DNA of 32,897 bases from Treponema sp. (GTDB lineage: Bacteria > Spirochaetota > Spirochaetia > Treponematales > Breznakiellaceae): positions 1 to 32,897 of the forward strand of contig JAISSH010000134.1 of the NCBI GenBank assembly GCA_031273265.1, given 5' to 3'. How positions within the stretch are numbered: position 1 is the stretch's first letter; each line of letters opens with the position of its first letter. Under the pieces are notes generated by a model. It was given only the letters and a program-made list of their open reading frames with translations, made no database searches and had not been told where the DNA came from. Of this stretch, positions 15,367 through 32,498 are shown piece after piece. The position numbers were made by a program, and so were the translations under genes.

Positions 15367-16428
15367 TTAAAACCTGTACTTAATCCCAATCGAAGGGATC
15401 ACACCGCTGACATCTCGTTTTCCTTGAATGGCATTCAGGCGAATCTCTTCATCAGTCCCCGCATCACCCAGATTAATAAAAAGCACTCCGGCAAAGATAC
15501 TGAGCTTTTTGATACGGTAAGACACATAGGGTTCCACGCTGAACTGCCGAAAACCGCCGTCCGCCGTCAATGTTAGAGCGGCAAAAAAAGCGCCGCGCCA
15601 ATAACTTAAAACCAATTCTGTTTCTCCGTATTGGAAACCAGGATCAGTCTGACCATATTCGCTGTTCGGGTCAACCCACAAATTCCAGAACCGGCATGAC
15701 ACAGTAACGCCAAAACCAAGAAGTGAGTTAAAGGACGCCGAAACCGTATAATCCAGCGCCATGTCGCCGGTGTAAGAAAAAGGAAAACTGTTGGTTAGGC
15801 TGAAATCCCCAAACTCAAGATCACAGCCGATTCTGAGCGAAGGTTCAAGTACCGAATAAGAAAGGACTCGCCCGTTACTGTAGAGTGAATTTGCGTCCGG
15901 CATAAAATCAAACTGGTTCTGGTTATCAAGAGACGGGGTAAGAGTAAAACGCTCGTTTAAATCAAAAGTATACGCGACATCCGCCTCAATACCGCCACGG
16001 CTCAGGGTTTCAAGTTTTTCATTTTTCCCGCCTGGCGACAACACCGGATCATCAAGGGAGAGCGTATAAAAAACACTCGCGAAAATATCCAGAGCGCCAA
16101 AGCCGTTCAGATACGCAATGGACGGACGCAGATTTATATAGTCGTTTTTTTTGTCATTCCAATCCCCAAGGTCCATTTGAAAACCCAGAATGAGTCCCAG
16201 CGGTTTTTTGACCGCCACATTTTCTCCGTCCTCTGTAACTTCTGCCTCATCTTCTTCCCTAGCGGCATCCGGGCTTTCCCTCTGGCGTTGTTCACGTTGA
16301 CGCTGACGCTGTTCCTGTTTAAAAGCGCGGACACAACTTTCGTGCAAGGGACAGCCCGGAATATACGGCAAGGCAGCGCTGCCCATAAGAACGGTAAAAA
16401 ACAAAACGATGAAAAATAAACCCTTCAT
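15367..16428 (-). CDS. Candidate outer-membrane beta-barrel protein with CPLHESC N-terminal motif
   Basis: A 353-residue exported protein ending in phenylalanine with an alternating-hydrophobic last strand (SIGIKYRF), the usual outer-membrane barrel signature. A signal peptide (KGLFFIVLFFTVLMGSAA) is followed at the predicted mature N-terminus by IPGCPLHESCVRAFKQEQ, then a Gln/Arg/Glu-rich charged segment to about residue 65, then repeated amphipathic strands (RPSIAYLNG, YTLSLDD, LSYSVLEPSLRIG, FFAALTLTAD). The same IPGCPLHESCV motif occurs in the 100-residue protein at 21548-21850. The ATG at 16428 overlaps the upstream stop (ATGA); the longer frame would extend into that gene. Its substrate or function is unknown. 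Confidence 0.7.
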   Translation of the reverse strand: MKGLFFIVLFFTVLMGSAALPYIPGCPLHESCVRAFKQEQRQRQREQRQRESPDAAREEDEAEVTEDGENVAVKKPLGLILGFQMDLGDWNDKKNDYINLRPSIAYLNGFGALDIFASVFYTLSLDDPVLSPGGKNEKLETLSRGGIEADVAYTFDLNERFTLTPSLDNQNQFDFMPDANSLYSNGRVLSYSVLEPSLRIGCDLEFGDFSLTNSFPFSYTGDMALDYTVSASFNSLLGFGVTVSCRFWNLWVDPNSEYGQTDPGFQYGETELVLSYWRGAFFAALTLTADGGFRQFSVEPYVSYRIKKLSIFAGVLFINLGDAGTDEEIRLNAIQGKRDVSGVIPSIGIKYRF

Positions 16429-17171
16429 TCTTTCCACTTCGCGGCGGCGACTCTTGTGTAGACCCACTCAGCCGGAGTGGGACTTAACTGCGTCTCTGTT
16501 ACCCGCCATTTGCCGTTTCCCTGTTGATTGATCTCAGCTATTACAGGCGCGATTCCAAAACGCCATTCGCCAAATATAACCAGCGTGTTTCCCCGCAGGG
16601 CGTAGGCGTTTTCAAACTGATGACCTGCCTGGTGATGAAAGACTTTTACCGTCCCATCGGCGCGGTACTTGAGCGACCATGTAAGACCGTGTTCACTGCC
16701 CGTCCAATCCGCCGACCACTCCCCGATTAACGGGTTCATCAGTCTGAGCGTCTGCGGACTGCCGCTTATCCGTTCCAGCGTTATAAATGATACCTCCCCT
16801 CCCCCCCATAGTGTCAGAGTCGCTCGGTTATTCGCAATCGAAAACTCATAACGGGTAACGACGGCGGGGGAACCTTCAAGAATCAAAAGGTTTCCCTGAG
16901 ACGGCGCGGTTTGAACATCTTGTCCGGCGTAGACAAAAAAAGAAAAGTTATCTGGGAACGGTCCCGCTTGCGCAACTGCCCTGCCGCCGGTTCCGTCTGC
17001 CCTGAACTGCCAATATTGCGAGCCAGCTTTCCAGATGCCAATAAAACTGTTCACAAGCGAGACATGGGGGTCGGGCGGTAAATCCGGCTCCTCTTTGCAG
17101 ACGGCAAGGCAGAGAACCAGCGCCGCCGGAAAGAGGAGAAAGAGCCGCCAGAAAGAGAGTGTTTTTTTCAT
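16425..17171 (-). CDS. Exported protein with two lipocalin-like modules (paralogue 2)
   Basis: A 248-residue secreted protein of unknown function. The hydrophobic N-terminus (LFLLFPAALVLCLAVC) followed by KEEPDLPPDP fits a relaxed spirochaete lipobox, so it is probably a lipoprotein. Module 1 reads FIGIWKAGSQYWQFRADGTGG and LLILEGSP. Module 2 reads LIGEWSADWTGSEHG, YRADGTVKVFHHQAGHQFENAYALRGNTLVIFGEWRF. Module 2 is strikingly similar to that of the gene at 14645-15346, including the HH and QF-NAY-x-RGN positions. Its ATG directly follows the TAA of the 158-residue gene, and its stop overlaps the barrel gene, giving a coupled set. Confidence 0.75.
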   Translation of the reverse strand: MKKTLSFWRLFLLFPAALVLCLAVCKEEPDLPPDPHVSLVNSFIGIWKAGSQYWQFRADGTGGRAVAQAGPFPDNFSFFVYAGQDVQTAPSQGNLLILEGSPAVVTRYEFSIANNRATLTLWGGGEVSFITLERISGSPQTLRLMNPLIGEWSADWTGSEHGLTWSLKYRADGTVKVFHHQAGHQFENAYALRGNTLVIFGEWRFGIAPVIAEINQQGNGKWRVTETQLSPTPAEWVYTRVAAAKWKE

Positions 17172-18652: not shown

Positions 18653-19852
18653 TCAGGGTTCAACAACCTTTGTAAGCCGCCAGAATAACGAGGTGTTGGT
18701 ACTCCTCGAAAATTCACGCTTTTCGCTAATCCTGACGACCTCTTTACCTCCCATTGCCGTAGCGGTTACTGCTTCCCATGACGCAATCGCCGGCGGGTCC
18801 CAGCGCCTACCGTCATTTCCCACAGTAACAAATACCGCGCCTCGTTTCAACCATGCCCCGCTATAATTAAAAGATGGATAATTTGGTCCATGGAACTGAA
18901 CCCACCCATCTTTGTGATAGGTAATATTGCGAGTGGTGCTAGTTATACTGTCGGATGAGGGATTGAAGAGAGCACCGGTAAAACTGCCGGTCCAGCCGCC
19001 TATCATCCTCAATGCAGAATAGTTCTTCGACAGATCAAGAGTCGCCGGCGCGCCGCTAAGACGGGTCAGGGTAATAGGCGCCCCAGATATATCATATTGC
19101 ATAGGGTCCTGTTTATTTGTTGCATCAGTATAGGTAAAGCTTATGGGGGTTATCTTGATTTTATTTCCTGTTTGTTCAAAACAGTATACGGTGTACAATC
19201 CGTTATCAGGATCGGCTACTTCTTCCATTGTGATGGTCTCTGGGTTGCCGGAAACGGTAACCAAAAATTTACGTCCCGGTTTGCCGCTCCACACCACAAA
19301 ACTTCCCGTGTTAAACATATCATCATCTATGCCGTAGGTTCCGTCTATCCTGAATGTCCACCTTTTTCCGTCAGAGCCGCTCCATGTGCCGATAAAGGGG
19401 TTACGGGGGAAATCAATGCTGACTTCAAATTCTTTGGTATAATCAAAACCTTCACCCTCCCCGTCTGTTACAATGGCGAACACTTTTACTTTGCTTGTAA
19501 AAAACGTTGTCGGGATAAACAGATCATCTTCTATGACGATCCTGTCAGTCGCAAACTCTGTGCCGCTGTTGTTACTTGCCCAGATAATGTCGTCAAAGGT
19601 TTTACCCGGAGCTTTGGGAAGATTTATCGTTATCCCTTTCCGTAAATTAAAGGGTACGCCCATTGGAATAGTTGAAGGTAACCCGTTTATGCCTTGCGGC
19701 GTCTTTTTAGTCGAAGTTGTTGACTGTTTATCATCAACCACTTCATCGTCTTCACAACTTAAAAATACCGGGAGAAGGATTAATAAAACCGCAGCTCCCA
19801 CCAAAAAACCTTTCTTTCCTTTCTTGATCATTTCGACAATTGCCTTTTTCAT
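18653..19852 (-). CDS. Lipoprotein with Ig-like domain plus two lipocalin-like modules (paralogue 4)
   Basis: The largest of the four paralogues (399 residues). A long basic/hydrophobic signal ends in FLSC (Cys about 33), followed by EDDE. Residues about 50-150 look like an Ig-like beta domain (GITINLPKAPGKTFDDIIWASNNSG ... KVKVFAIVTDGEG). Module 1 starts with FIGTWSGSDGKRWTFRIDGTYG; module 2 with MIGGWTGSFTG and contains YHKDGWVQFHG and AWLKRGAVFVTVGNDGR. It is preceded by copy A of the duplicated leader. The frequent AT and ST run (STTSTKKTP) after the lipobox suggests a flexible tether. Surface location is likely; the ligand is unknown. Confidence 0.75.
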   Translation of the reverse strand: MKKAIVEMIKKGKKGFLVGAAVLLILLPVFLSCEDDEVVDDKQSTTSTKKTPQGINGLPSTIPMGVPFNLRKGITINLPKAPGKTFDDIIWASNNSGTEFATDRIVIEDDLFIPTTFFTSKVKVFAIVTDGEGEGFDYTKEFEVSIDFPRNPFIGTWSGSDGKRWTFRIDGTYGIDDDMFNTGSFVVWSGKPGRKFLVTVSGNPETITMEEVADPDNGLYTVYCFEQTGNKIKITPISFTYTDATNKQDPMQYDISGAPITLTRLSGAPATLDLSKNYSALRMIGGWTGSFTGALFNPSSDSITSTTRNITYHKDGWVQFHGPNYPSFNYSGAWLKRGAVFVTVGNDGRRWDPPAIASWEAVTATAMGGKEVVRISEKREFSRSTNTSLFWRLTKVVEP

Positions 19853-19919
19853 GAGAATTTCCTTTATGTAAGATTTTGCTTAGGCGCTTGTTAGCCGCCT
19901 AAAGCATAGGCAGGTAGAA

Positions 19920-19948
19920 AATATAATGACTGCCGAAACTCGGGTCAA
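19920..19948 (-). promoter_or_regulatory. Second promoter of leader copy A, downstream of the hairpin
   Basis: -35 TTGACC (19948-19943), a 17-base spacer and -10 TATATT (19925-19920), each five of six matches. The predicted 5' UTR of about 60 bases contains the hairpin GCTTTAGGCG/GCGCCTAAGC (19905-19878). In copy B the same interval is three bases longer and the spacing is poor, so this promoter may work only here. Confidence 0.55.
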
Positions 19949-19959
19949 ATACTCTACTT

Positions 19960-20000
19960 AAAAAAAAGACACTGCGGACAAGGAATCGTCCACAGCGTCT
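19960..20000 (-). terminator. Hairpin-U-tract in leader copy A
   Basis: Minus strand: AGACGCTGTGGAC (20000-19988), an eight-base loop and GTCCGCAGTGTCT (19979-19967) pair over 13 positions with two wobbles, then a run of eight Ts. It is a strong intrinsic terminator. It lies about 95 bases after the multicopper oxidase stop and about 11 bases after the predicted start of the TTGACA promoter, so it may end the oxidase transcript, attenuate the next, or both. Confidence 0.85.
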
Positions 20001-20017
20001 TTGCTGTTTATACCCTA

Positions 20018-20046
20018 AATTTACTAAAAATGAAAATTCTTGTCAA
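20018..20046 (-). promoter_or_regulatory. Promoter upstream of the copy A hairpin
   Basis: Perfect -35 TTGACA (20046-20041), a 17-base spacer and -10 TAAATT (20023-20018). The predicted transcript starts about 10 bases before the terminator hairpin. That would give a roughly 50-nt terminated RNA or an attenuated mRNA leader. Confidence 0.5.
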
Positions 20047-20094
20047 TAGGTTTTTTTCCATTTTTAACAAATTTTTCCACCGTCCAATTCGTTT

Positions 20095-21546
20095 CTACTC
20101 GGCAATTATCATCGTCAACATACCGTTGTCCTCATGGTCGATGATATGGCAGTGAAGCATCCAATGACCGGGATATTGAAATTTGACCGCCACATCAACA
20201 TATGTATTCGCGGGAATCTCCATTGTGTCTTTCCACATTTCCCGTTCAGGCGCCGTTCCGTTTATGGAGACAACCTGAAAATGCCCTCCGTGCAGATGCA
20301 TGGGATGGCGGTTTATGTGATGCATCAGTCCGCCTACGTCCTCGTTTTTAAAACGCAGAATATACACCTGATCAACCGTACATTTATCATAAACCTCATC
20401 ACCACTGGTATGGTCAACAAAAGCTTTACCGTTGATTGTCCATGACGTAGCTATTGACTCGTTTTCGTGGCTGTCCCCGCTGTGATCCATGTTTGAATTG
20501 AGTACATAAGTATGGTCGGGGGTCGCGCCGGGAGTTTTTCCAAACGACTTAGACACACCCGGCACAAAGGGCGATTCCATCTCTTTTCCAACGCCTTTAT
20601 ATTTAACGGGGATGCGTATTCCATAACCGCGCTCGTTCCTTATGTAATAAGTGCCCTCGCTTTTGATTCCTTTTAGTTCCGCATCCACCCGCTCGCCGGG
20701 GGCTATTCTGATACGATTCGCCGTGTACGGTTCAAGCAGGTAGTGCCCGTCCAGATGGGTAACGCGGAATTCATGTCCAGCCATAGACAGGGTATGGCTT
20801 TGAGCAGTTGACGCGTTGATAAAACGCAGTTTGACAATTTCACCCTTTTTCAACGTAACAGGATAGATGTCATTGCCGTAGCGCCGGTTGACCGTCTCCA
20901 CATTGCCGACTAATTCCGTGTATCCGTGAGAACCGCCATAATTGTTGTTGTCGTCGGCAATGCTGTTATCAAGGGGATTGATTGTCCAATCGTCCAGAGT
21001 AAAGACATAATCGCCCGCGTATTGGCTGTCATAGTCCTCTTTTATAATAAACGGCGCGTAAAGCCCGCGGTTAAGCTGGGGCAGAATCGGTCTCATGTGC
21101 GGATGATACCAATGGGTTCCCGTCATATCCAGGGTAAAGTTAAAAGTATGAGTATCGCCCGAGTTCAACACTACCGAAGGTCCGTCCTGATCATAGGGTA
21201 CCCTGAGTCCGTGCCAGTGGAGGCTGGTTTTTGTATTGAGGGAATTGGTAACATTGAACGTTAACGATTCATCTCTGCGAACAATTATCATACCGCCGGG
21301 CATTCCGGTTTCGTATTGGTATATATCAGTCTTGCCGCTCTTTAGTTTGGTCTTAGCGTTAACAATGTTGATGTTATATTCAGTTTTGGGCTGGTATTTA
21401 AGAATATTATACGGATTTCCGGGATCTTGGGTGGAATTGGAGTTATATACTTTTTTGTCATTATCTTCATCCTCGCAGGAAAAAAAAGCCGGTGTCGTGA
21501 TGATTAAAACCGTAATGGTGAAAACGATTAAAGCGTATTTTTTCAT
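20095..21546 (-). CDS. Multicopper oxidase (laccase/CueO-like), predicted lipoprotein
   Basis: Oxidises phenols, metal ions such as Cu(I) or Fe(II), or other donors with reduction of O2 to water. The protein has 483 residues and a lipobox (PAFFSC), so it is predicted to be anchored outside the inner membrane. All four copper motifs are intact: HWHG (about 110-113), HWYHPH (145-150), HPMHLHGGHF (414-423) and HCHIIDHEDNGM (465-476), which includes the type 1 Cys, two His and the axial Met. The ATG at 21546 lies one base after the upstream stop. An in-frame ATG at 21570 has a somewhat better AGAGGCG site and would add eight residues. It pairs with the CPLHESC protein under leader copy B. A dioxygen-using enzyme is notable next to oxygen-sensitive nitrogenase. 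Confidence 0.92.
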   Translation of the reverse strand: MKKYALIVFTITVLIITTPAFFSCEDEDNDKKVYNSNSTQDPGNPYNILKYQPKTEYNINIVNAKTKLKSGKTDIYQYETGMPGGMIIVRRDESLTFNVTNSLNTKTSLHWHGLRVPYDQDGPSVVLNSGDTHTFNFTLDMTGTHWYHPHMRPILPQLNRGLYAPFIIKEDYDSQYAGDYVFTLDDWTINPLDNSIADDNNNYGGSHGYTELVGNVETVNRRYGNDIYPVTLKKGEIVKLRFINASTAQSHTLSMAGHEFRVTHLDGHYLLEPYTANRIRIAPGERVDAELKGIKSEGTYYIRNERGYGIRIPVKYKGVGKEMESPFVPGVSKSFGKTPGATPDHTYVLNSNMDHSGDSHENESIATSWTINGKAFVDHTSGDEVYDKCTVDQVYILRFKNEDVGGLMHHINRHPMHLHGGHFQVVSINGTAPEREMWKDTMEIPANTYVDVAVKFQYPGHWMLHCHIIDHEDNGMLTMIIAE

Positions 21547-21547
21547 G

Positions 21548-21850
21548 TTAAACCGCCGCAGGATGTTCACGCCTCTTCATGCCGTAAAGCAGAAACGCCG
21601 CGCCCAAAAAAGCGGCGGATGCAACACCGGCAATACCGCCGGAATATACTGCCGGGAAACGCGGCGCAAAAACTGCCCATTCCTCCTGCAGAGCCTTAAC
21701 ACAGCTTTCGTGCAAAGGACAGCCGGGAATGTTGGGAAGTTCCCCCGCCGCCGCCACGATGAGCTGTGCCCGCGCCGCGTGGTTTACCGTAAAAAAGACC
21801 CCTGTTCCAAGAAGCAGGCAGGGAATAGCAAGTAAAAGTGTTTTTCTCAT
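21548..21850 (-). CDS. Small exported membrane protein with CPLHESC motif
   Basis: A 100-residue protein of unknown function. A signal peptide (LLLAIPCLLLGTGVFFTVNHAARA) is followed by IPGCPLHESCVKALQEEW and a C-terminal membrane helix (GGIAGVASAAFLGAAFLLYG) with a short basic tail. The CPLHESC element (Cys-x5-Cys with an internal His) is nearly identical to that at the mature N-terminus of the beta-barrel candidate at 15367-16428. Metal or copper binding is conceivable given the multicopper oxidase immediately downstream, but not shown. It is the first gene after leader copy B. Confidence 0.7.
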   Translation of the reverse strand: MRKTLLLAIPCLLLGTGVFFTVNHAARAQLIVAAAGELPNIPGCPLHESCVKALQEEWAVFAPRFPAVYSGGIAGVASAAFLGAAFLLYGMKRREHPAAV

Positions 21851-21980
21851 GAGAATTTTCCATATGTAAGATAATTTGTTGTTCAGGCGCTTTTAGCGTT
21901 TTACGTATCAGAGCGCCTACAACTTGGCAGGGTAGAAAATACATTGACTGCTGAAACTCAGGCGGTCAAGCACTCTACTT

Positions 21981-22022
21981 AAAAAAAAAGACACTGCGGA
22001 CAAGGAATTGCCCACAGCGCCT
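21981..22022 (-). terminator. Terminator of the nif-modA operon / hairpin of leader copy B
   Basis: Minus strand: AGGCGCTGTGGGC (22022-22010), an eight-base loop and GTCCGCAGTGTCT (22001-21989) pair over 13 positions with four wobbles, followed by a run of at least eight Ts. It lies about 65 bases after the modA stop. Confidence 0.85.
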
Positions 22023-22039
22023 TTGCTGTTTATACCTTC

Positions 22040-22067
22040 ATTTTACAAAAAAGAAAAACTTTGTCAA
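22040..22067 (-). promoter_or_regulatory. Promoter upstream of the copy B hairpin
   Basis: Perfect -35 TTGACA (22067-22062), a 16-base spacer and -10 TAAAAT (22045-22040). As in copy A, the predicted start is only about 11 bases before a terminator hairpin. Confidence 0.5.
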
Positions 22068-22086
22068 GCGGTTTTTGGCGGTTTTT

Positions 22087-22902
22087 TTACTTAATTACCG
22101 TAAACCCGATTTTGTCAAACACCGCCGAAGCCTGCGGTGTGCTTAAAAAATTTAAGAACGCCCGCGCCTCTTTTGCGTTTGGCGAATCCTTTACCACAGC
22201 GGCAGGATATACAACAGGCTGATGACTGCCTAAAGGCGCGTCTGCCACAACTGTTACGCCTTTTGCTGTCGCCGCGTCTGTTGAATACACGACTCCGCAG
22301 TCAACACTCCCACTTTCCACCTGCGACAGCACTTCTTTTACGTTAGTTCCCAGCGACGCTTTGGCGCGGACAATATCCCAGCCGTTCAGGAACTTGAAAA
22401 TTTCCTCCGCGTACTGTCCCACAGGCACATCGGCGTTGCCAAGCGCCAAGAGCGACACTTTAGACGTCAGACAGTCCTGAAAAGACGAAATGCCCTTGTT
22501 ACTGCCCTGCGGCACTATCAACACCACGCTGTTTACAAGCAAATCTTTGCGCGTCGCGTCGTCAATGTAAACGCCTGCAAGCGCGTTCATCTGCCTCTGC
22601 GCCGCAGACAGAAACAGGTCAGCTTCCGCGCCGTTTTCAATTTGGGTTTGCAATGCGCCGCTAGACTGGAAATTAAACGAAAGCGTTACTTCAGGCGCGG
22701 CAGTTTTGTAAAGCTGCGCGATTTCGTTTAACGCTTCCGTAAGGCTCGCGGCGGCAAACACGTTCAATGTTACAGGCGTCGCTTGTTTTTTTACACAGCC
22801 TGTTAAAAGCATTGCGCTTAAAAGCGCGGCGCTTAAAAGCGCGACGCATGAAAGCATGGCGCATAACACGGTGATACTAAATATGGAAAAGCTCCTTCTC
22901 AT
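22087..22902 (-). CDS. modA: Molybdate-binding protein ModA
   Basis: Extracytoplasmic solute-binding protein that captures molybdate for ModB-ModC. It is 271 residues with an unusually long signal region (two CALLS-like hydrophobic repeats) ending in a lipobox LLTGC. The mature protein shows VTLNVFAAASLTEALNEIA, the ModA anion-binding start, then FNFQSSGALQTQIENGAEADLFLSA, the LALGNADVPVGQYA segment and CGVVYSTDA. It overlaps the homocitrate synthase gene by ATGA, so it is the last gene of the nif operon. Its partner genes lie 8.3 kb downstream on the same strand, separated by the envelope island. Confidence 0.92.
   Translation of the reverse strand: MRRSFSIFSITVLCAMLSCVALLSAALLSAMLLTGCVKKQATPVTLNVFAAASLTEALNEIAQLYKTAAPEVTLSFNFQSSGALQTQIENGAEADLFLSAAQRQMNALAGVYIDDATRKDLLVNSVVLIVPQGSNKGISSFQDCLTSKVSLLALGNADVPVGQYAEEIFKFLNGWDIVRAKASLGTNVKEVLSQVESGSVDCGVVYSTDAATAKGVTVVADAPLGSHQPVVYPAAVVKDSPNAKEARAFLNFLSTPQASAVFDKIGFTVIK
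22814..22843. repeat. Tandem 15-bp repeat inside the modA signal-peptide coding region
   Basis: The 15-mer GCGCTTAAAAGCGCG occurs twice in direct succession (22814-22828 and 22829-22843), with degenerate copies on either side. Each unit is itself a near palindrome (GCGCTT-AA-AAGCGC). Read in modA it encodes repeated hydrophobic five-residue units (ALLSA), so copy-number change would lengthen or shorten the signal peptide in frame. Confidence 0.85.
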
Positions 22903-23720
22903 CTTGTTCTCCTTGTAGATTTTATAACCCTAAAAATATTATTTTGAAGATCCCGCGCCGCGGAACCTGTCAAACCCCAATTAAAAAGCGAAGAGCTTGC
23001 CTGAACCAGATGCGCCAGATTGCAGTTTCCCGCCCGCTCTCCGATACCGCCCGCCGTTACGTCGGCGTACAGACAGCCTGATTTTACAGATTCAAGCGTG
23101 TTTGCCACCGCCATGCCGAAATCGTTGTGGGCGTGTATGCCAAGCTCCGCCTTGCCGTCCAGTTTTGCGGAAAGCTCGTTTACCACTTCGCGGCAGCGGC
23201 TCGGCGATGCGACGCCTACGGTATCGGCAAGACGTATGCGCGTAATGCCGTAATCAAGCAGAATCTTGGCAACAGTCGCCATGAAATTTATATCCGAACG
23301 AAACGCGTCCTCAAACCCCACGGACAGAGGAACGCAGTTTTTATCGGCGATGTAAAGACATTCGCGCAGTTGGCTTATTACCCAGTCCTCGTCCTGACGA
23401 ATTTTTTCACGGATATGAATCTGCGAAACAGGTATGCTGACGTGTATGATGTCAGGACGAGTGTCAACCGCGTTTTCGATATCGGAGGGAACAAGACGCG
23501 ACCATACCGAAACAGCCGCGTTTTTCCGGTTTTCAATTATCTTGATAATTATTTCTTTTTCCTGTTTGGACACGGCTGGGATTCCGGCTTCAATTTGATG
23601 TACACCGCTGTAGTCCAAAATAGACGCGATTTTCATTTTTTGTTCGGCGGAAAAACAAATACCCGGACTCTGCTCTCCGTCGCGCAAAGTACTGTCTAAA
23701 AGAAACCTTTGTTGTTTCAT
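22899..23720 (-). CDS. nifV: Homocitrate synthase, catalytic-barrel subunit (split NifV)
   Basis: Condenses acetyl-CoA with 2-oxoglutarate to homocitrate, the organic ligand of FeMo-co. At 273 residues it holds only the TIM-barrel part of the usual roughly 380-residue NifV. The catalytic signatures are intact: LLDSTLRDGEQSPGICFS at the N-terminus, the EAGIPAVS segment, the metal-binding HAHNDFGMAVANT, and ADVTAGGIGERAGNCNL. The C-terminal lid and accessory domain is absent and is carried by the preceding gene, with which it overlaps by ATGA. This two-gene arrangement is known from Clostridium pasteurianum, whose homocitrate synthase is encoded by two nifV genes. Confidence 0.9.
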   Translation of the reverse strand: MKQQRFLLDSTLRDGEQSPGICFSAEQKMKIASILDYSGVHQIEAGIPAVSKQEKEIIIKIIENRKNAAVSVWSRLVPSDIENAVDTRPDIIHVSIPVSQIHIREKIRQDEDWVISQLRECLYIADKNCVPLSVGFEDAFRSDINFMATVAKILLDYGITRIRLADTVGVASPSRCREVVNELSAKLDGKAELGIHAHNDFGMAVANTLESVKSGCLYADVTAGGIGERAGNCNLAHLVQASSSLFNWGLTGSAARDLQNNIFRVIKSTRRTR

Positions 23721-24706
23721 TTAACGCGCTCCTTTGCTATATGCTCATTAATGAGCTTGACAAATTCCGCGTCGCTTACTTCGCCGCTTTTTTCCGCCGC
23801 TTTATTTTTGATCTGTTCAAGAATGAACGGAATGTGCTCCTGCTCGCATTTAATATCAAACTCGGAAAGTTTCACGCGAACTGACGCGGTTCCGCTGTGT
23901 TTGCCAAGCACGAACTTTCGCTTTTGCCCGACAATTTCAGGGGCAAACGGCTCGTAGCTTTTTGGCTGTTTAAGAATCCCGTCCACATGAATGCCCGACT
24001 CCACGCAGAATATCCGGCTGCCGATTATGGGTTTATTCAAATTAACATTTTTTTTTGTAAACTTATGAAACAGACGCGACATTACCGGGAAAAATGAATA
24101 AATTTTATTTTCATTTCGCAGACGGTTTTCCCTCAGGAACATCAGCACTTCCTCAGTCGGCGCAAAACCGCCTATGCCGCCAAAGGAAGTTACGACATTG
24201 TTTCCCGCGCCGCTTGTTATCCATTCCGCCGCCAGCGCGGTCGCGCAGTTGAAATGGTTTCTAGGACAAAACTCAAAGCGTTCGGCATCGCTCTTAAATG
24301 TTTTTTTCAGATACTCGAAAGCGCGCGTATAGTCGTCGCACATAAGATAATCCAGTCCCTGTACGCGCACATTCTCGTAATTGGCATAACGGGCGATTGT
24401 TTCCGAAGAAGCTTTTAGCGTATTGTCAAGAGAAATTTCGGCGCGAATTCTTTTGTCTATACCGTTAGGCGCATTACGGCAGACAAATTCTTTTATTTGC
24501 GGATATTTTTCAGCGTTGGCGGAATTTTCTATGCGAAGAATATATGAATATTCGGGCAGGGGCGACAGCAGTTTATACATTTTTTCGGAAAGCTCTATCG
24601 CTCCCGGATCCATTTTGATTAAAAACTGTAAAAAACGCACAAGGGCTGACTTTTCGCCTGCCCGGTCGTCAACACACGATAATGTCCTGTCCGTTATTCG
24701 AATCAA
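23717..24706 (-). CDS. nifV: Homocitrate synthase second subunit: degenerate barrel plus C-terminal domain (split NifV)
   Basis: A 329-residue partner of the catalytic subunit. The first roughly 220 residues align with a homocitrate synthase barrel but have lost catalytic motifs: DRTLSCVDD in place of D-x-TLRDGEQ, CPRNHFNCATA in place of HAHND-x-G, and FGGIGGFAPTEEVL in place of NGIGERAGN. The C-terminal part is well conserved: ESGIHVDGILKQPKSYEPFAPEIVGQKRKFVLGKHSGTASV, the lid region that completes the active site. The protein is therefore probably structural/lid-supplying in a hetero-oligomer. It starts at TTG 24706 with CAGGA five bases before, the frame beginning where the first barrel strand is expected. 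It is not a pseudogene, because it overlaps the next gene by a clean ATGA. Confidence 0.85.
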   Translation of the reverse strand: MIRITDRTLSCVDDRAGEKSALVRFLQFLIKMDPGAIELSEKMYKLLSPLPEYSYILRIENSANAEKYPQIKEFVCRNAPNGIDKRIRAEISLDNTLKASSETIARYANYENVRVQGLDYLMCDDYTRAFEYLKKTFKSDAERFEFCPRNHFNCATALAAEWITSGAGNNVVTSFGGIGGFAPTEEVLMFLRENRLRNENKIYSFFPVMSRLFHKFTKKNVNLNKPIIGSRIFCVESGIHVDGILKQPKSYEPFAPEIVGQKRKFVLGKHSGTASVRVKLSEFDIKCEQEHIPFILEQIKNKAAEKSGEVSDAEFVKLINEHIAKERVK

Positions 24707-24830
24707 GAAAGTCCTGCCTAGTTTTTGCGTGTATTATGAAATACGCCACCGCGAAAAACCATCCGGTGTTTGTTACTAGACAATCTGACGTTAAGTCCCT
24801 GTCTTCTACTTTCTGCTTAGGCGATACCAT
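24669..24830 (-). CDS. Possible 53-residue small protein bridging nifN-B and nifV
   Basis: A frame of 53 codons that starts with ATG at 24830, seven bases after a strong GGAGG, overlapping the nifN-B stop by 14 bases and the nifV TTG start by 38 bases. The product begins with a charged VSPKQKVEDRD segment, then has a hydrophobic GWFFAVAYFIIHAK segment. I recognise no family. It could be a real small membrane protein or a coupling cistron that delivers ribosomes to the weak TTG start. The overlap with both neighbours makes chance possible. Confidence 0.35.
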   Translation of the reverse strand: MVSPKQKVEDRDLTSDCLVTNTGWFFAVAYFIIHAKTRQDFLDSNNGQDIIVC

Positions 24831-27420
24831 ATACCGCCCTCCTTTCCTTTATTTCTCTTGCCGCCATGCTGACGGCTGTTTCTACTCTCTCGTAAGTAGT
24901 AATAACATAAATGCCGTTTTCTTGCAAGCGTCTTTCGGGGGTGGGACCGATCCTAAGCGCAAGCACCGCATCGCAGTCGGAAACGGCGCGTATAACTGAC
25001 GCCCATTTGTCCTCTTTGTCGCATGTTCCGTCGCAGTACTTGCTTACACTGCGGGTTTCCACAAAGCGCGTTTCCGTATCGTCGCTTTCGTAGATATAAA
25101 ACTTGTCCGCGTGTCCGAAGTGCAAATCCACAATCGCGCCGGTTTTGCTGGCAACGGCAAAACGCTTAAGTTTATCTTCAGTTTGATCCGTTTCAAGCGT
25201 TTTAGACGCTAAAACCGGCTCTGTAAATTCAATTGAAAGGTCATCGTCCAGCGTCCCCGCGGCGTCCGAACGGCATTGTCTGCAATGGGTCATCTGTTTG
25301 ACATGAGCGCCGCACTGTTCGCGGAGAGCCTCTATCTCTTTATTTGTCACGCGCTCCAAGCCTTCAAACGCCGAACCCTTGACAGGAATGTGCGGCATGA
25401 CATTTGTCATAAAAGCGCCAAGTTCAGATACTTTTTTCGTTACTTCAAAAACATGTCCGTCATTTACGCCTTTTAACACCACGCAGTTTACTTTGCAGAT
25501 CATTCCGGCATCGACAAGCATTTTTATTCCGGCAAGCTGGTTTGCCAAAAGAATTGCCGCTCCCTGTTCCCCTGTGTATGTCATTCCCATATAATTTACG
25601 TGATGATAAATTTTCGCGCCGACAGCCGGGTCAACAGCGTTAACCGTTACAGTTACATGACTTACACCTAACGCCTTCAACCGCGAAACATACTGCGGAA
25701 GCAAAAGCCCGTTAGTAGCAATGCAGAAAGTAACGTCAGGGTCGAAATCCCGAATCAGGCGGAAGGTTTCGCTTGTATTTTCAAAATTCGCAAGCGCGTC
25801 TCCGGGACCGGCGATTCCGGCGACGGTAAGGTTAGGCATTGTTTCTTTTAAGTTTTTGTAACGTTCCAAAGCTTCGTCAGGCGATAAAATTTTTGACGCT
25901 ACTCCGGGACGGCTTTCGTTCATGCAGTCGTAATTGCGAAGGCAGTAGTTGCACTGAATGTTACATTCCGCGGCGACAGGCAGATGAACTCTCGCGTTCT
26001 TGCAGGCGTGCTCTCCGAAACAGGGGTGGGTTGCTGTTTTGTCTTTCTCCTGCCCATCGAAAAATTTGTCGTACAGTTCGCCGCGAAAAGTTGTTTCGGT
26101 TTTATCGATCATCGCGTTTGCAATCATATCCAGTAAATTGAGGGTACCGTCAAAACCGAACATACGCACACGCTGTCCGCCGACATGGTCGTGTATCGGG
26201 AAGGCGCACCGTATCAGCGGAATGTTCAGTTTGCGGGCAATGCGCCTGCCATCCGAGCTTCCAATCAGCAGGTTCGCTTTTCTTTCAACGCAGGACTTTT
26301 CTATCTCTGCAAAGTCGCTGTCGTCAAGTACCATCATTCCTTCGTCAAAGTGAAATTCTGCGCAGTTTTCAACTTCACTTGAAAGCGTTTCGCGTAACTT
26401 TTCAGAAACCGAACCTGTAGCCGCAACGACAGGAAGAATTCCGTTCTCACAGCACAACCTGACCATCGCTGCCGTAAAATCAGGCTCTCCAAAAACAGCC
26501 GCACGCGCCTCTGCACAGTGTTTGTGGGAGTCGACCATCGCGTCAAGATAGCGACCCCGCGCTTTTTTTGTTTTTCCGGTTATAACATCGCCATCGTCTA
26601 TCAGCACATCGATCAATTTATCCATGCCGCGAAGTCCTATAGGCAGAGGCAGTTTGACAGAGGGCACGCCGTATGCGCTCCTTAAAAATTCAGCGGGTGA
26701 GTTTTTCTCATCGGTAAACTCGGAAAACTCAATCGTGAATTTTGCCCCTGCCATCGCCGCTATGTCCGAAATCGCGGTTCCGCCCGTTTTCAGTCTCCTG
26801 TACTTTTTTTCTGTCGCACCGTCCAGATTTTCCGAAAGATCCGGAAACATAATAAATGTTATATCCATTTCCTCAAAAAAATGTTTAAGCCAGCGGGTGT
26901 CCGCCGGGCTTATCTGAGGCGTGATAATATTTATCTTGCCGTTGCGTGTTGTGTCAGGTTCCGTCTGTTCCAGAATAGCGCGTAACGCGGCGAACCAGCC
27001 TTCGTTCTGCGTTCCGCCGTATCCGGGAGAGGCGATATTGATAATTTTCACATTAAGTCCCGGATTTTGCGCGTAAAACTTTTTTACAATAGCGTTCACA
27101 TCTTCGCCGATAGTCTCAGCGAGACAGGTGGTGCATACTCCAATCACTTCCGGCGCGTATAAATCGATCATGTTGCGAAGACCTCTTAATAAATTCGCCT
27201 CTCCGCCAAAGACCGTCCCCTCTTCGGTTAACGATGACGAAGCAATGTCAACAGGTTCGTTGTAGTGAGTCGCCATGTGCCTGCGGATATAAGTCGCGCA
27301 CCCTTGAGAGCCATGCAGGATAGACATACTGGACTTTATGCCGCATAACGCGCTGACCGCTCCCATAGGCATACACATCTTGCATGGGTTTACATTGAGG
27401 CTGACCAAATTGCCGATCAT
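24817..27420 (-). CDS. nifN-nifB: NifN-NifB fusion protein (FeMo-co scaffold and NifB-co radical SAM synthase)
   Basis: An 867-residue bifunctional FeMo-co biosynthesis protein. Residues 1-445 are NifN-like (NPCKMCMPMG, HGSQGCATYIRRH, TTCLAETIGEDV), the partner of NifE in the scaffold. After a short linker, from about 464, comes NifB: CFGEHACKNARVHLPVAAECN with the radical SAM triad C486-x3-C490-x2-C493, GIAGPGDALAN as the SAM-binding GGE-like motif, and VKGSAFEGLERV. From about 745 to the end is a NifX/NafY-like domain (GAIVDLHFGHADKFYIYES). NifN-B fusions are known in Clostridium pasteurianum. It overlaps nifE by ATGA. The fusion may channel NifB-co directly to the NifEN scaffold. Confidence 0.95.
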   Translation of the reverse strand: MIGNLVSLNVNPCKMCMPMGAVSALCGIKSSMSILHGSQGCATYIRRHMATHYNEPVDIASSSLTEEGTVFGGEANLLRGLRNMIDLYAPEVIGVCTTCLAETIGEDVNAIVKKFYAQNPGLNVKIINIASPGYGGTQNEGWFAALRAILEQTEPDTTRNGKINIITPQISPADTRWLKHFFEEMDITFIMFPDLSENLDGATEKKYRRLKTGGTAISDIAAMAGAKFTIEFSEFTDEKNSPAEFLRSAYGVPSVKLPLPIGLRGMDKLIDVLIDDGDVITGKTKKARGRYLDAMVDSHKHCAEARAAVFGEPDFTAAMVRLCCENGILPVVAATGSVSEKLRETLSSEVENCAEFHFDEGMMVLDDSDFAEIEKSCVERKANLLIGSSDGRRIARKLNIPLIRCAFPIHDHVGGQRVRMFGFDGTLNLLDMIANAMIDKTETTFRGELYDKFFDGQEKDKTATHPCFGEHACKNARVHLPVAAECNIQCNYCLRNYDCMNESRPGVASKILSPDEALERYKNLKETMPNLTVAGIAGPGDALANFENTSETFRLIRDFDPDVTFCIATNGLLLPQYVSRLKALGVSHVTVTVNAVDPAVGAKIYHHVNYMGMTYTGEQGAAILLANQLAGIKMLVDAGMICKVNCVVLKGVNDGHVFEVTKKVSELGAFMTNVMPHIPVKGSAFEGLERVTNKEIEALREQCGAHVKQMTHCRQCRSDAAGTLDDDLSIEFTEPVLASKTLETDQTEDKLKRFAVASKTGAIVDLHFGHADKFYIYESDDTETRFVETRSVSKYCDGTCDKEDKWASVIRAVSDCDAVLALRIGPTPERRLQENGIYVITTYERVETAVSMAAREIKERRAVYGIA

Positions 27421-28778
27421 AGCGAGTACCCTTTAACATATTTCCAAACAGGGCTGTTAATCGAACTGTGAATCTCTTTTACAAAATTTTCTATTCCCTC
27501 AAATCCGGCGAGAGGGTGTTTGCGCTCGTGGTTGTGATCGCAGAACGCCATGCCGAGTTTGTAAGCCAGCGGACGCTCTTTCACGCCGCCAACGAGTATG
27601 TCCGCGTTTTTTTCAGTCATGAAACGTTCAAGCTCGGCGGGATTCGCGTCGTCAAGAATCACCGCGTTACCGTCTACCAGTGTGCCTATTGTTTCATATT
27701 CGTCTTTCTTTCCGGTTTGCGTACCGACAACGACAGTTTCCATACCCAGTTCGTTGAATTGGCGGATAAGAGAAATCGCCTTGAAACCGCCGCCGACAAA
27801 GATTGCCGCTTTCTTGCCCTGCAAGCGCGGTTTATATTTTTCGATAACGGGCATTATCTTCGCCGTTTTTTCAGCCGCGAAACGCCGCGCGTTATTCAAA
27901 ATGTCATCTCTGCCGGTCGCTTCCGCCACGCGCAGAAGCGAGGCTGTGGTGTCCTCAATGCCGAAAAAACTCACTCTTACTGAAGGGATTCCCAATTCCG
28001 ATTCCATGCGCTGGGCGAGATACGCGGACGAGCCGGCGCACTGCACGATGTTAAGCGAAGCGGACGGCGCTTGAATCAATTTTTCATAAGAGGAATCGCC
28101 TGTTATCGTGGAAATAACTGGGATACCGATTTGTTCAAGATAGCCTTTGATGATCCACATTTCTCCGGCGAGGTTATAGTCGCCCAAAATATTTATGCCA
28201 AAACGTTTTTCTTGATTCGCGTGAGGAAGAATCAATGTCATGAGCGCGTCACACGCGAGTTTATAACCTTGCGTCTTTGTTCCCGAGAAACCCGGAGCTT
28301 TAACTGGTATCACGCGAATTGCGTACTTCGCTTCTGCGGCGCGGCACACTGCCTCAATGTCGTCGCCGATTACGCCGACTATGCAGGTGGCGAAAACAAA
28401 AATCAGTCTTGGCGCGGGACTTGCTTTTTCCATTAGCTCGTCAATCGCGGCGGTAAGTTTTTTCGCGCCGCCAAAAACGATGTCCGTCTCGCGCAAATCG
28501 GTTGAAAAACTGTTGCGGAACATTTCCGCCCCGGAAGTAAGACTGCCGCGTATGTCCCATGTGTAGCTCGCGCACCCGATTGGTCCGTGAACGATGTGGT
28601 ATGCGTCCGTAATAGGATTAAGCACAACCCTCGCGCCGCAGTAAACGCAGGCGCGCTGACTCACCGCGCCTGAAACGCTTTCCCGTTCGCACGAAATATC
28701 GGCGGCTATAACCCGCCTTCCTCTTTCGCGCCTGTCGGAAATTGACGCTTCGCGTTCTTTTAATATACTGGTGTTCAT
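27417..28778 (-). CDS. nifE: Nitrogenase cofactor scaffold protein NifE
   Basis: Forms the NifEN scaffold on which the FeMo-co precursor matures. It has 453 residues, in the normal range. Cluster-ligand regions typical of NifD/NifE are present: RACVYCGARVVLNPITDAYHIVHGPIGC (about 42-69) and FVFATCIVGVIGDDIEAV near 130. The motif IVQCAGSSAYLAQRM occupies the place where NifD has its FeMo-co cysteine segment, and the CDHNHER region lies near the C-terminus. It starts 17 bases after the ferredoxin gene with a weak ribosome binding site and is coupled to nifN-B by an overlapping ATGA. Confidence 0.94.
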   Translation of the reverse strand: MNTSILKEREASISDRRERGRRVIAADISCERESVSGAVSQRACVYCGARVVLNPITDAYHIVHGPIGCASYTWDIRGSLTSGAEMFRNSFSTDLRETDIVFGGAKKLTAAIDELMEKASPAPRLIFVFATCIVGVIGDDIEAVCRAAEAKYAIRVIPVKAPGFSGTKTQGYKLACDALMTLILPHANQEKRFGINILGDYNLAGEMWIIKGYLEQIGIPVISTITGDSSYEKLIQAPSASLNIVQCAGSSAYLAQRMESELGIPSVRVSFFGIEDTTASLLRVAEATGRDDILNNARRFAAEKTAKIMPVIEKYKPRLQGKKAAIFVGGGFKAISLIRQFNELGMETVVVGTQTGKKDEYETIGTLVDGNAVILDDANPAELERFMTEKNADILVGGVKERPLAYKLGMAFCDHNHERKHPLAGFEGIENFVKEIHSSINSPVWKYVKGYSL

Positions 28779-28795
28779 CTTATAGAACGATCTCT

Positions 28796-29116
28796 CTATA
28801 TTCGGTACTTTTCTACCGGAGTCCCGCCCTCTAAATGCTGTTCACAAATTTCCTCAACGGCGTCTTCGTCAAGTTTTCCGTACCAGACTCCGCCGGGAGC
28901 CGCAGAGCCGTAGATTACCGCGCAGGGACCGTCTTTGCACATGCTGAAACAGCTTGTGTATGTCACCAAACAGTCTGAACCTAATCCCCTGTCGTCAATT
29001 TCCTGAATAAATTTCTGCAGGACTTCCTGTCCGCCTTTCTTGAAACAAAAGCCGGTAGGCTCTCCTTTAACTTTACACGCCGTGCAAACAAAAACGTGAT
29101 ACTTAACCGAAATCAT
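28796..29116 (-). CDS. Thioredoxin-like 2Fe-2S ferredoxin
   Basis: A 106-residue [2Fe-2S] ferredoxin of the family typified by the Clostridium pasteurianum 2Fe-2S ferredoxin, which is known to interact with the MoFe protein. The sequence matches it closely in pattern: YHVFVCTACKVKGEPTGFCFKK, TYTSCFSMCKDGP and GVWYGKLDEDAVEEICEQHLEGG. Cysteine ligand candidates are C11 and C14 near the N-terminus, C24, and the CFSMC pair near 56-60. It lies between nifK and nifE with good ribosome binding sites (AAAGGAGG), so it is probably a nitrogenase-specific electron carrier or accessory. Confidence 0.92.
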   Translation of the reverse strand: MISVKYHVFVCTACKVKGEPTGFCFKKGGQEVLQKFIQEIDDRGLGSDCLVTYTSCFSMCKDGPCAVIYGSAAPGGVWYGKLDEDAVEEICEQHLEGGTPVEKYRI

Positions 29117-29128
29117 TGTTGTCCTCCT

Positions 29129-30496
29129 TTATAAGACAAGTTCAAAATCTTCGTCTTTGACATCTCTGTCGAATCTATCAAGCAGAGTGTTGACGATTCT
29201 TTCCGCCATTCTAATACCGCCGGCATAACCGACAATAGGCAGAATAGTACCGGCATAACGGTCGATCACCGGAAATCCGGCGCGGACAAAAGGTATATCC
29301 TCCGCGCGCGCGATTTGCTTTCCGTAAGACGAACCGATCAGCAGATCCACAGGCTCATTTTTGATCCACTGATGAAGTTTGAATAAATCGGTTCCGGCTT
29401 TAACGGTGCATTGATCGGCTACATTGTACTTTTCAAACAGCGCCCTTACGCTGTCCGCGAAAGCTTCTTTCGGCGTTCCCGAAATAACATATTTCGGAAT
29501 CATGCTCATTTCCAGCGCGAGTGATGTAAGTCCCAATACCACGTCAGGGTCGCCGAAAATCGCGACTTTCTTTTTGTAGGTATACTGATGAGAGTCGATC
29601 AAAAGATCGACAAGCTGTCCGCGTTCAGTTTCAATTTCACTTGGAACTTCCATCTTTGATTGATTTCGCAGAGCCATAATAAATTGATCGGTAAAATCAA
29701 TTCCAACCGGCAGAGGCAGCATGGTAAAGGGAACTTTCCATTTTTTCCTGAGCAGTTCCGCAGGCTCTGTGCTGACGATCTCTCCAAGGGCGATAAGCCC
29801 TTCGCTGTCGCCAAGTCCCTTTATTTCCGCAACCGTAGTGCCGCCGTCTGGATACATTTTATAATGACCTGTCATCGGCGTGTCCATAACTCCGCTTTGA
29901 TCGGGAAAAAATGTCGCCGGAACGTTCATAAGCTTGGTAAGCCGTTTAAGCTCACGGATGTCGGCAGGGTTTACCCAACCGGGGAAAATCGCGGTCTTGC
30001 CGTTAGGCGTTCCGGTTTTCTGGGTAAGGCAGTTCATAAAACCCAGCATCATATTGAAGAAACCGTAAATGTGAGAGCCAACGTATGACGGAGTACTGCT
30101 GTAAACAACCTGCTTGCCTTCCGGGATCGCTATTTCCGCAATGTACGAATAAAGATCGTCTCCGATTGTTTCAGAAAGACAGGTTGAATGAATGGCGATG
30201 ATTTCGGGGTTGTACATTTCAAAAATGTTTTTGACGGCGGTAGTAACGTTGCTTCTGCCGCCGAATACCGACGCGCCTTCCGTAAACGACGATGATGACG
30301 CCAGCGCGATTTCCTTGAAGTGGCGCGAGAGAAGCATACGGTGATAGGAAGCGCAGCCCTGAGAGCCGTGGCTGTGCGGCATACAGTTATTTACGCCTAA
30401 CGCGGCGTACATCGCGCCGACAGGCTGACACGCCTTACAGGGATTGATGTTAAGCGCGGTTCTTTCTTTTACTTCCTTAGGTGTCATGTCAAGCAT
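29129..30496 (-). CDS. nifK: Nitrogenase MoFe protein beta chain NifK
   Basis: Beta subunit of the MoFe protein, sharing the P-cluster with NifD. At 455 residues it has the short N-terminus of cluster III/clostridial NifK, lacking the roughly 50-residue extension of Azotobacter. P-cluster cysteines are visible at about C23 (KACQP), C48 (HGSQGC) and C106 (STCLSETIGDD). SSTPSYVGSHIYG carries the conserved serine region. The stop of nifD and its ATG share one base (TAATG), giving tight coupling for equimolar subunits. Confidence 0.97.
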   Translation of the reverse strand: MLDMTPKEVKERTALNINPCKACQPVGAMYAALGVNNCMPHSHGSQGCASYHRMLLSRHFKEIALASSSSFTEGASVFGGRSNVTTAVKNIFEMYNPEIIAIHSTCLSETIGDDLYSYIAEIAIPEGKQVVYSSTPSYVGSHIYGFFNMMLGFMNCLTQKTGTPNGKTAIFPGWVNPADIRELKRLTKLMNVPATFFPDQSGVMDTPMTGHYKMYPDGGTTVAEIKGLGDSEGLIALGEIVSTEPAELLRKKWKVPFTMLPLPVGIDFTDQFIMALRNQSKMEVPSEIETERGQLVDLLIDSHQYTYKKKVAIFGDPDVVLGLTSLALEMSMIPKYVISGTPKEAFADSVRALFEKYNVADQCTVKAGTDLFKLHQWIKNEPVDLLIGSSYGKQIARAEDIPFVRAGFPVIDRYAGTILPIVGYAGGIRMAERIVNTLLDRFDRDVKDEDFELVL

Positions 30497-32094
30497 TATT
30501 TGTCCTCCTTAAACTCACCGGTGATCATAGCCCCATGTTTCCAGGGAGGAGTAACCAGCTTCCACGCATTGGTGTACAGATCCATTGTCAGGTCGCGCCC
30601 GAAATTTACCGCGCCTCTGAACCCGGCGTAAGGTCCCGAATAGTCGTAAGCGTGAATCTGCCGCGAGGCAACGCCCGTTTTTTGAATCGAATATTTGTCC
30701 TTAACGCCAGACAGCATAATGTCAGGCTTAAAAATTTTGAGCAATTGCTCTGTTTCATAGTGGTTATAGTCGTCCAAAACAATATCTTCCGCTTCCGTGT
30801 CGGGGAACAACCCCGGATAGTCGGCGAGGACAATGCCTTTTTCTTTGAGCGCCTCGACTTGTTCCGGCGTTAGCTGTTTACGATAAAGTTTCTCGTCCGG
30901 TTCAAGAACGAGGTTTTCAATATTCTTACTGTCCGCGTCTTCCTTGATAGTCGGGATAACTTCGCGCCCTTCATAGTCGTCGCGGTGGGCAAACTCGTAA
31001 CCGGTAATGATCGCCTTCATTCCCAAATCCTTCAACAGAATTTTGTAATGATGGGCGCGTGCGCCGCCGGCAAAGACACCGGCCGTTTTGCCTTCAAGTT
31101 TGGATCGGTAATACTCCATATCCTCCTTGATCGCCGCCATTTCATCGGCGATTACTTCCTCTACCCTCTTGGTCAATTCGGGATCGTCAAAATATTTCGC
31201 GATCTTGCGCAAAGACTGGCAGGAGGCGTTCATGCCGATAAAGTTGACCTTCATCCAGTGCATGCCGTATTTTTGCCGCATCATTTCCGCAACGTAGTTG
31301 ATCGAACGGTGGCACATAACAATGTTGAGGTGGGCGGTGTGCGCGCTTTTCAGCGATTCAAAAGTACCGTCGCCGGTAAAAATGTTGCGCACTTCAAACC
31401 CGCATCTTTTGAGGATACGCTCCACTTCCCAGCCGTCCCCGCCAATGTTGTACTCGCCCAGGACGTTGATCGAAAACTTGGTCTTGGGCTGGTCGTCCCC
31501 TATGCCGATTATGTGCTGCATAAGCCCGTTGTTGGCAATATGGTGTCCGCCCGACTGGGAGACGCCCTTGTATCCTTCACAATTAAAAGATATTACTTTT
31601 ATGCCGTACTTTTCCTCCGCGGCTTTCGCGACCGCCTTAACATCATCGCCGATAAGGCCGATGGGGCAGGTACAGGCGATAGCGATAAACTTGGGGCTAA
31701 AGATTTCAACCGCCTCATCAATGGCTTTCGCGAGTTTCTTTTCGCCGCCGAAAACAATATCCGGCTCCTGCATATCGGTAGACAAACAGTAAACGGTAAA
31801 GTTTTTTCCGTCTTCATTGGGACGCGCCTTGTTTCTGCGCGTTCCCCAGGTGTAAAAACCACAGCCGATAGGTCCGTGAGTAATGGTACAAACATCTTTC
31901 ACCGGGCCTAACACAACGCCTTTACACCCTGAATAACAACAGCCGCGCTCGGTTATCACCCCGGGAATGGCGCGGGTGTTAGCTGATATAACTTGTTTTT
32001 CGCCGCCTTCGTCAAACTGCAGGATATGTTCCTTGCGGTTCTTGTAAACTTTGGCGGAGTATTTATCCAGCAGTTTATCCCTGTTGCCGCTCAT
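30496..32094 (-). CDS. nifD: Nitrogenase MoFe protein alpha chain NifD
   Basis: Alpha subunit carrying FeMo-co. It has 532 residues. P-cluster cysteines at C52 (RGCCYSGC), C78 (GPIGCGFYTWG) and C143 (CTCPIGLIGDD); the active-site histidine H184 in GGHHIANNG; FeMo-co ligands C261 (NIVMCHRSINYV) and H481 (QIHAYDYSGPY). The C261-H481 spacing is 220 residues, against 167 in Azotobacter, so about 53 residues are inserted near positions 375-430. This insertion is a feature of clostridial and cluster III NifD. All catalytic residues are intact, so the nitrogenase should be functional and of the molybdenum type. It overlaps nifI2 by ATGA. Confidence 0.97.
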   Translation of the reverse strand: MSGNRDKLLDKYSAKVYKNRKEHILQFDEGGEKQVISANTRAIPGVITERGCCYSGCKGVVLGPVKDVCTITHGPIGCGFYTWGTRRNKARPNEDGKNFTVYCLSTDMQEPDIVFGGEKKLAKAIDEAVEIFSPKFIAIACTCPIGLIGDDVKAVAKAAEEKYGIKVISFNCEGYKGVSQSGGHHIANNGLMQHIIGIGDDQPKTKFSINVLGEYNIGGDGWEVERILKRCGFEVRNIFTGDGTFESLKSAHTAHLNIVMCHRSINYVAEMMRQKYGMHWMKVNFIGMNASCQSLRKIAKYFDDPELTKRVEEVIADEMAAIKEDMEYYRSKLEGKTAGVFAGGARAHHYKILLKDLGMKAIITGYEFAHRDDYEGREVIPTIKEDADSKNIENLVLEPDEKLYRKQLTPEQVEALKEKGIVLADYPGLFPDTEAEDIVLDDYNHYETEQLLKIFKPDIMLSGVKDKYSIQKTGVASRQIHAYDYSGPYAGFRGAVNFGRDLTMDLYTNAWKLVTPPWKHGAMITGEFKEDK

Positions 32095-32489: not shown

Positions 32490-32498
32490 ACGTTCTCC

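Follow-up and report, generated by a model that had tools for sequence, protein, structure and literature searches.

ANTAR targets have been defined as RNAs with two hairpins, and both hairpins are needed for the full affinity of EutV and NasR (PMC3369931, PMC7496416); a single hairpin is bound by NasR at about 12 uM (PMC7496416). The EutV element, AGCAANGRRGCUY, overlaps the 5' part of the terminator (PMC3369931), and SELEX with NasR led to a terminal C-G pair with A1 and G4 in the loop (PMC7496416). The phyla for which ANTAR targets have been described are Firmicutes, Proteobacteria, Actinobacteria, and Bacteroidetes (PMC3369936).

Here, we analyze two copies (A and B) of a leader in a stretch of 32,897 nt from a treponeme genome, which we refer to as the window. 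Each copy very probably acts as a transcription attenuator, operated by an ANTAR-domain antiterminator that conveys nitrogen or glutamine status. The analysis supports this reading by the anatomy of the leaders, the mutual exclusivity of their two structures, conservation and covariation, a nitrogen regulon, and co-occurrence with ANTAR genes; a missing second hairpin counts against it. The decisive feature is a 5' hairpin, ACAGC-AAAGRC-GCUGU, that had been overlooked in an earlier sequence-only reading of this DNA.

Results

Structure of the two leader copies

Both leaders and their downstream genes, like all genes of the region, are on the minus strand. The units and their sigma-70 promoters (P1), the latter from a promoter scan, are as follows:

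about 20046-19853, minus strand: copy A, full unit
about 22067-21851, minus strand: copy B, full unit
20018..20046, minus strand: copy A promoter P1, TTGACA-17-TAAATT
22040..22067, minus strand: copy B promoter P1, TTGACA-16-TAAAAT

The duplication that had been claimed extends across the whole unit, as A and B can be aligned end to end with a mean column identity of 81%, and the repeat search returned blocks of 88, 78, 92, and 81% identity; no third strong copy of the full unit was found in the genome assembly. The TTGACA promoter reported close before a hairpin is likewise present in both copies, with the distance between the end of the -10 box and ACAGC being 10 nt in each. The structures that follow P1 are:

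19992..20007, minus strand: copy A predicted ANTAR-type antiterminator hairpin, ACAGC-AAAGAC-GCUGU
22014..22029, minus strand: copy B predicted ANTAR-type antiterminator hairpin, ACAGC-AAAGGC-GCUGU
19960..20002, minus strand: copy A intrinsic terminator and U-tract
21981..22024, minus strand: copy B intrinsic terminator and U-tract

In both copies, the small hairpin lies at the 5' end of the RNA and consists of 5 bp and a hexaloop, with A at position 1, G at position 4, and a closing C-G pair; in copy B, 11 of the 13 positions agree with the published EutV element. ACAGC comprises the five bases preceding the terminator, its partner GCUGU lies inside the 5' arm of the terminator, and the terminator starts within the hexaloop (AAAGRCGCUGUG...), the two structures being mutually exclusive in A and B. 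The short 5' segment, folded by itself, yields the ACAGC/GCUGU hairpin. The hairpin with a U-run that the sequence-only reading had described is a strong terminator in both copies (z-scores of -8.1 for A and -5.9 for B against shuffles), but its stem contains 17 pairs, including A-U and G-U, and not 13 bp; the differences between the two main stems do keep the pairing, mostly via G-U.

In the proposed mechanism, RNA polymerase would initiate at promoter P1, and the 5-bp hairpin with the A1/G4 hexaloop would form after the first few bases. By default, the much stronger terminator would overtake the small hairpin, and an RNA of ~50 nt would be released; an active ANTAR protein would hold the small hairpin, leaving the 5' arm of the terminator occupied and the operon transcribed. 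We infer the binding of the ANTAR protein to the small hairpin, as well as the activating signal. Attenuation had been proposed earlier in several versions, among which the one with a bound protein is backed by the ANTAR evidence presented below, whereas the metal, stress, and tRNA versions lack support. Termination could also leave a stable ~50-nt small RNA as a by-product, which the explanation does not need.

The statement that the leader belongs to no known riboswitch class was borne out: Rfam gave no match at gathering and at permissive thresholds, and the best sub-threshold matches near the leaders had E-values of 0.6-0.7, far below the gathering scores. A tRNA or T-box element was rejected, since the window has no tRNA and there is no Rfam hit.

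The hexaloop hairpin in Clostridia

From a sample that spans the class Clostridia, we examined 90 regions upstream of genes for type III glutamine synthetase (GSIII), picked by the protein only. Hairpins with a hexaloop, at least 4 pairs, and an overlapping terminator were counted for all 16 letter combinations at loop positions 1 and 4, with C-G closing as a selection criterion. The A1/G4 hexaloop with an overlapping terminator was found in 35 of the 90 regions, whereas each of the 15 other letter pairs was found in 0-2 regions, mostly in none. The stems vary (ACAGC/GCUGU, AAGGC/GUCUU, GAAAC/GUUUC, UAAAC/GUUUA, ACGGC/GCCGC, and more), while loop positions 1 and 4 are constant; UAAAC-AAAGGC-GUUUA in the genome G025 is a compensated example. 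For 35 distinct hairpin versions, 93% of cells were paired, compared to 73% in shuffles, the number of double-changed cells was 49 compared to 17.6, and covariation was 0.73 compared to 0.32 (0 of 500 shuffles); because the inner pairs of the stems were partly selected by pairing, the letter-pair control is stronger evidence than this covariation.

These data bear on the reading of ACAGC-N6-GCTGT as a DNA operator for a repressor just 3' of the start site, and not an RNA structure. The 16-bp dyad at about +4 to +19 would be suitably placed for an operator, which would, however, be expected to keep its arms and to free its spacer; instead, the arms vary with pairing kept, the loop retains A and G at positions 1 and 4 at the near-exclusion of the 15 other letter pairs, and the hairpin overlaps the terminator arm. 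We regard an operator as extremely improbable.

Distribution and regulon of the leader

DNA searches in the genus showed that the unit of P1 and hairpin recurs in related termite-gut treponemes, where the leaders precede GSIII, asnA, carA, gatCAB, and a gltS-type ferredoxin operon (the names of the adjacent genes are partly from sequence inspection). The terminator pairs covary among related leaders. The further copies that the sequence-only reading had predicted for relatives thus exist. In a covariance-model search of the kind it suggested, a model built from 16 leaders had four matches in this genome; A and B are among them, as is a place on contig C12 that is a true leader. Another match (L284 7681; G000:C88:37681), located before a chemotaxis receptor, was rejected; its terminator is very leader-like, but the antiterminator arm is destroyed. 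The C12 leader (L058 1897; G000:C12) lies before an outer-membrane-protein-like gene, as does a leader in a second species (L290; G016:C80); envelope targets thus also occur outside the window.

A pattern scan of named genomes detected at least 119 loci, mainly in Clostridia and Spirochaetes. Among the 119 listed loci, BLAST identified the first downstream gene as GSIII in 86 cases, asnA in 8, purF in 2, and glmS and glnA in one each; inspection of the other 21 suggests ammonium transporters in eight cases. The leaders of Clostridia are mostly found before GSIII, amtB, and asnA. A promoter -10 box ends 3-20 nt (mostly 9-12 nt) before ACAGC in 105 of the 119 listed leaders, compared to 10% of random positions.

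Two side observations concern individual loci. At one of them (L329; G025:C73), a single GSIII gene is preceded by a tandem of two complete hexaloop-terminator units, with a compensated stem. In two Spirochaetales/Spirochaetia MAGs (L165, L169), the leader precedes a protein of ~265 aa that resembles an AraC-type regulator by inspection, a possible member of the regulon.

Default termination would release a ~50-nt RNA from every copy, and ANTAR binds single hairpins weakly (PMC7496416), as would suit a unit that mainly makes a small RNA whose ANTAR hairpin acts in trans, e.g., as a sponge for the ANTAR protein. Yet nearly every copy lies directly 5' of an operon in the same orientation, and nitrogen genes are strongly favoured, neither of which is needed for action in trans. 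Furthermore, in the genome G010, which has no ANTAR gene, the GSIII leader retains the TTGACA promoter and the terminator but has ACAAA in place of ACAGC, and thus has lost the antiterminator. Action in trans as the main role appears very unlikely.

The segment between terminator and start codon

The distance from the U-tract to the start codon is 107 nt in copy A and 130 nt in copy B, unlike most GSIII leaders, in which the ribosome-binding site and the gene usually come directly after the terminator. This segment contains:

19914..19957, minus strand: copy A nested hairpin or interrupted palindrome with TTGACC-17-TATATT
19948-19943 and 19925-19920, minus strand: hexamers of a possible second promoter in copy A
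21932..21978, minus strand: copy B nested hairpin or interrupted palindrome with TTGACC, 20 nt from TGTATT
19882..19900, minus strand: copy A AGGCG/CGCCT hairpin, 5' of the ribosome-binding site, weak
21885..21918, minus strand: copy B AGGCGCU/AGCGCCU hairpin, weak

The TTGACC element noted earlier is present in both copies, but a promoter spacing (17 nt) exists in copy A only, for which alone the scan listed a promoter; the 20 nt of copy B are non-standard. The segment with TTGACC folds as a nested hairpin in A and B (z-scores of -3.2 and -4.1), with two pairs that differ on both sides between the copies in an alignment read by eye. These apparently compensated differences (19914-19957, 21932-21978) belong to a structure that was found nowhere else in this genome. 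The nested hairpin may be the operator of a second promoter, or it may act as an RNA element once the transcript reads through; the operator dyad of the putative second promoter does not occur elsewhere in the window. As for the second hairpin, AGGCG/GCGCCT, the sequence does follow TTGACC, but with z-scores of only -1.3 and -1.7 its folding is not clearly better than that of shuffles.

The simple reading as a terminator plus a new promoter fits copy A but not copy B, where the spacing is 20 nt. Applied to the entire unit, it would mean a plain intergenic layout, i.e., the terminator of the preceding gene and a fresh promoter, with an accidental TTGACA and a second copy that arose by recent duplication. 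Indeed, the two terminators sit 3' of modA and of the multicopper-oxidase gene, TTGACC-17-TATATT comes after the terminator of copy A, and the unit is duplicated as a whole. However, a TTGACA/-10 promoter stands right before the hairpin in the 105 of 119 listed leaders, from many genomes, in which the terminator usually runs straight into the ribosome-binding site and GSIII; ACAGC is kept or covaries, although the terminator has no need of it; and a second promoter with proper spacing is missing from copy B. A plain layout is, in our view, highly improbable.

ANTAR genes and their co-occurrence with the leader

This genome has one ANTAR gene (G000:C93; L113:5224-5793). It encodes a receiver-ANTAR protein (Pfam PF03861, 55 bits), the nearest solved structures of which are Rv1626, AmiR, 6wsh, and NasR. 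The gene is placed between glmS and purF-carA, in an operon with glmS, purF, carA, and gltS-type genes, and comes after glnA in relatives. Directly before the gltS-glmS-ANTAR operon (L113, about 853-915; G000:C93), there is a promoter, TTGACC/TATAAA, and then a hexaloop hairpin, CTGAAC-AATGGC-GTTCAG, with no terminator, which may be a translational or vestigial ANTAR site.

Of the 12 genomes of the genus with an ANTAR gene, 11 have the leader at GSIII or its operon, compared to 2 of the 16 without one, and these two are 70-71% complete (p = 5e-5, relatedness ignored and some genomes incomplete). G010, with neither an ANTAR gene nor the antiterminator arm, is in line with this association. For Clostridia, the leader was found in 32 of 45 genomes with and in 2 of 26 genomes without ANTAR (p = 1.2e-7, relatedness ignored and some genomes incomplete). 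ANTAR is present in 45 of 48 genomes chosen for the leader, compared to 72 of 148 class-wide.

Another RNA-binding regulator or a ligand, and not ANTAR, could conceivably hold the small hairpin: the leader has only one hairpin, ANTAR binding is predicted, and G017 and G019 of the genus as well as two Clostridia genomes have leaders and no detected ANTAR gene. G017 and G019 are, however, only 70-71% complete, and the co-occurrence of leader and ANTAR gene, the nitrogen regulon, and loop letters and a closing pair that are identical to those of the EutV/NasR consensus all favor ANTAR. We consider a different regulator or ligand very improbable.

Genes putatively controlled by the two copies

The genes around the leaders are:

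18653..19852, minus strand: 399-aa lipoprotein-like protein, first gene after copy A
21548..21850, minus strand: 100-aa protein with a signal-like N-terminus and a CPLHESC motif, no family found, first gene after copy B
20095..21570, minus strand: multicopper oxidase with three Cu-oxidase domains, second gene after copy B
22087-32825, minus strand: cluster of nif and mod genes beside both copies
13778-12039: modB and modC, further down

More lipoprotein-like genes continue after 18653..19852 down to 14645. The motif IPGCPLHESCV, near a signal-like N-terminus, is common to the otherwise different proteins 21548-21850 and 15367-16467. The nif-mod cluster comprises nifI1, nifI2, nifD, nifK, a ferredoxin-like gene, nifE, a nifN-nifB fusion with a nifX-like tail, nifV split into two genes, and modA (the names nifI, nifD, nifK, and nifE are from sequence inspection).

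The window genes downstream of the copies are not classical nitrogen genes. No more leaders, e.g., before the nif genes, were detected in the window by the covariance model and AGCAANGRNGCT, and the region upstream of the multicopper-oxidase homologue in G005 has no similar leader. We infer that the multicopper-oxidase and lipoprotein operons are under the same nitrogen control as the operons behind the other leaders. Their position alone suggests that the oxidase and lipoproteins might serve nitrogen fixation, e.g., by oxygen removal.

Discussion

From the leader, a nitrogen regulon can be predicted and tested in spirochaetes and many gut Clostridia, with the ANTAR protein as the probable regulator of GSIII; in the window, the leader places a multicopper oxidase beside a nif cluster under likely nitrogen control. 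It also raises a biochemical question, namely, how a normally dimeric RNA binder works with one hairpin. We suggest tentatively, with less than even confidence, that there is a widespread second class of ANTAR antitermination, in which one 5'-terminal hairpin, formed once RNA polymerase leaves the promoter, and a single ANTAR domain for each transcript, or a dimer whose second site stays free, are enough. This class would extend over Clostridia and Spirochaetota and would govern GSIII, ammonium transport, and the use of asparagine and glutamine; in this nif-bearing termite-gut treponeme, it would have gained a further hairpin downstream and been co-opted to couple a multicopper oxidase and envelope lipoproteins to nitrogen fixation, e.g., through oxygen removal near nitrogenase. 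The one-hairpin type would have been missed because searches used the two-hairpin definition.

Among known systems, the BglG/SacY/LicT RAT antiterminators are similar in that a short stem stabilised by a protein excludes a terminator; they differ in having a stem of ~29 nt with internal loops and in belonging to sugar genes and CAT-domain proteins, and the leaders contain no such element. The likeness to the EutV/eut, NasR/nasF, and AmiR/amiE RNAs (Ramesh et al. 2012, PMC3369931) is as follows: the A1/G4 hexaloop with C-G closing lies on the 5' arm of the terminator, the stem covaries, hairpin and terminator are exclusive, the genes are related to nitrogen, and an ANTAR gene is present in the genome. 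Unlike ANTAR-target RNAs (PMC3369931), the leaders have one hairpin, located right at the 5' terminus of the RNA, with no P1 hairpin and linker, and they reach Spirochaetota, outside the four phyla described (PMC3369936).

The second hairpin was sought on both sides. An upstream P1 hexaloop hairpin at a short linker (5-12 nt in eut) is absent in A and B; the 40 nt upstream of the 119 listed leaders contain 3 A1/G4 hexaloops, which is background (other letter pairs reach 8); and no A1/G4 hexaloop hairpin was found downstream of the main hairpin. There is no second hairpin because promoter P1 occupies its place, the transcript starting practically at the hairpin. The leader therefore falls outside the dual-hairpin ANTAR motif as defined, and is very probably a single-hairpin variant of the ANTAR antiterminator, of which we found no description in the papers examined. 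Some Clostridia have canonical dual-hairpin GSIII leaders (L381, L398), with the same P2 hairpin on the terminator before the same gene family; these have a further A1/G4 hexaloop hairpin, located about 22 nt upstream of P2, and no promoter was detected immediately before P2, whereas the leaders of the window type have a -10 box at that place.
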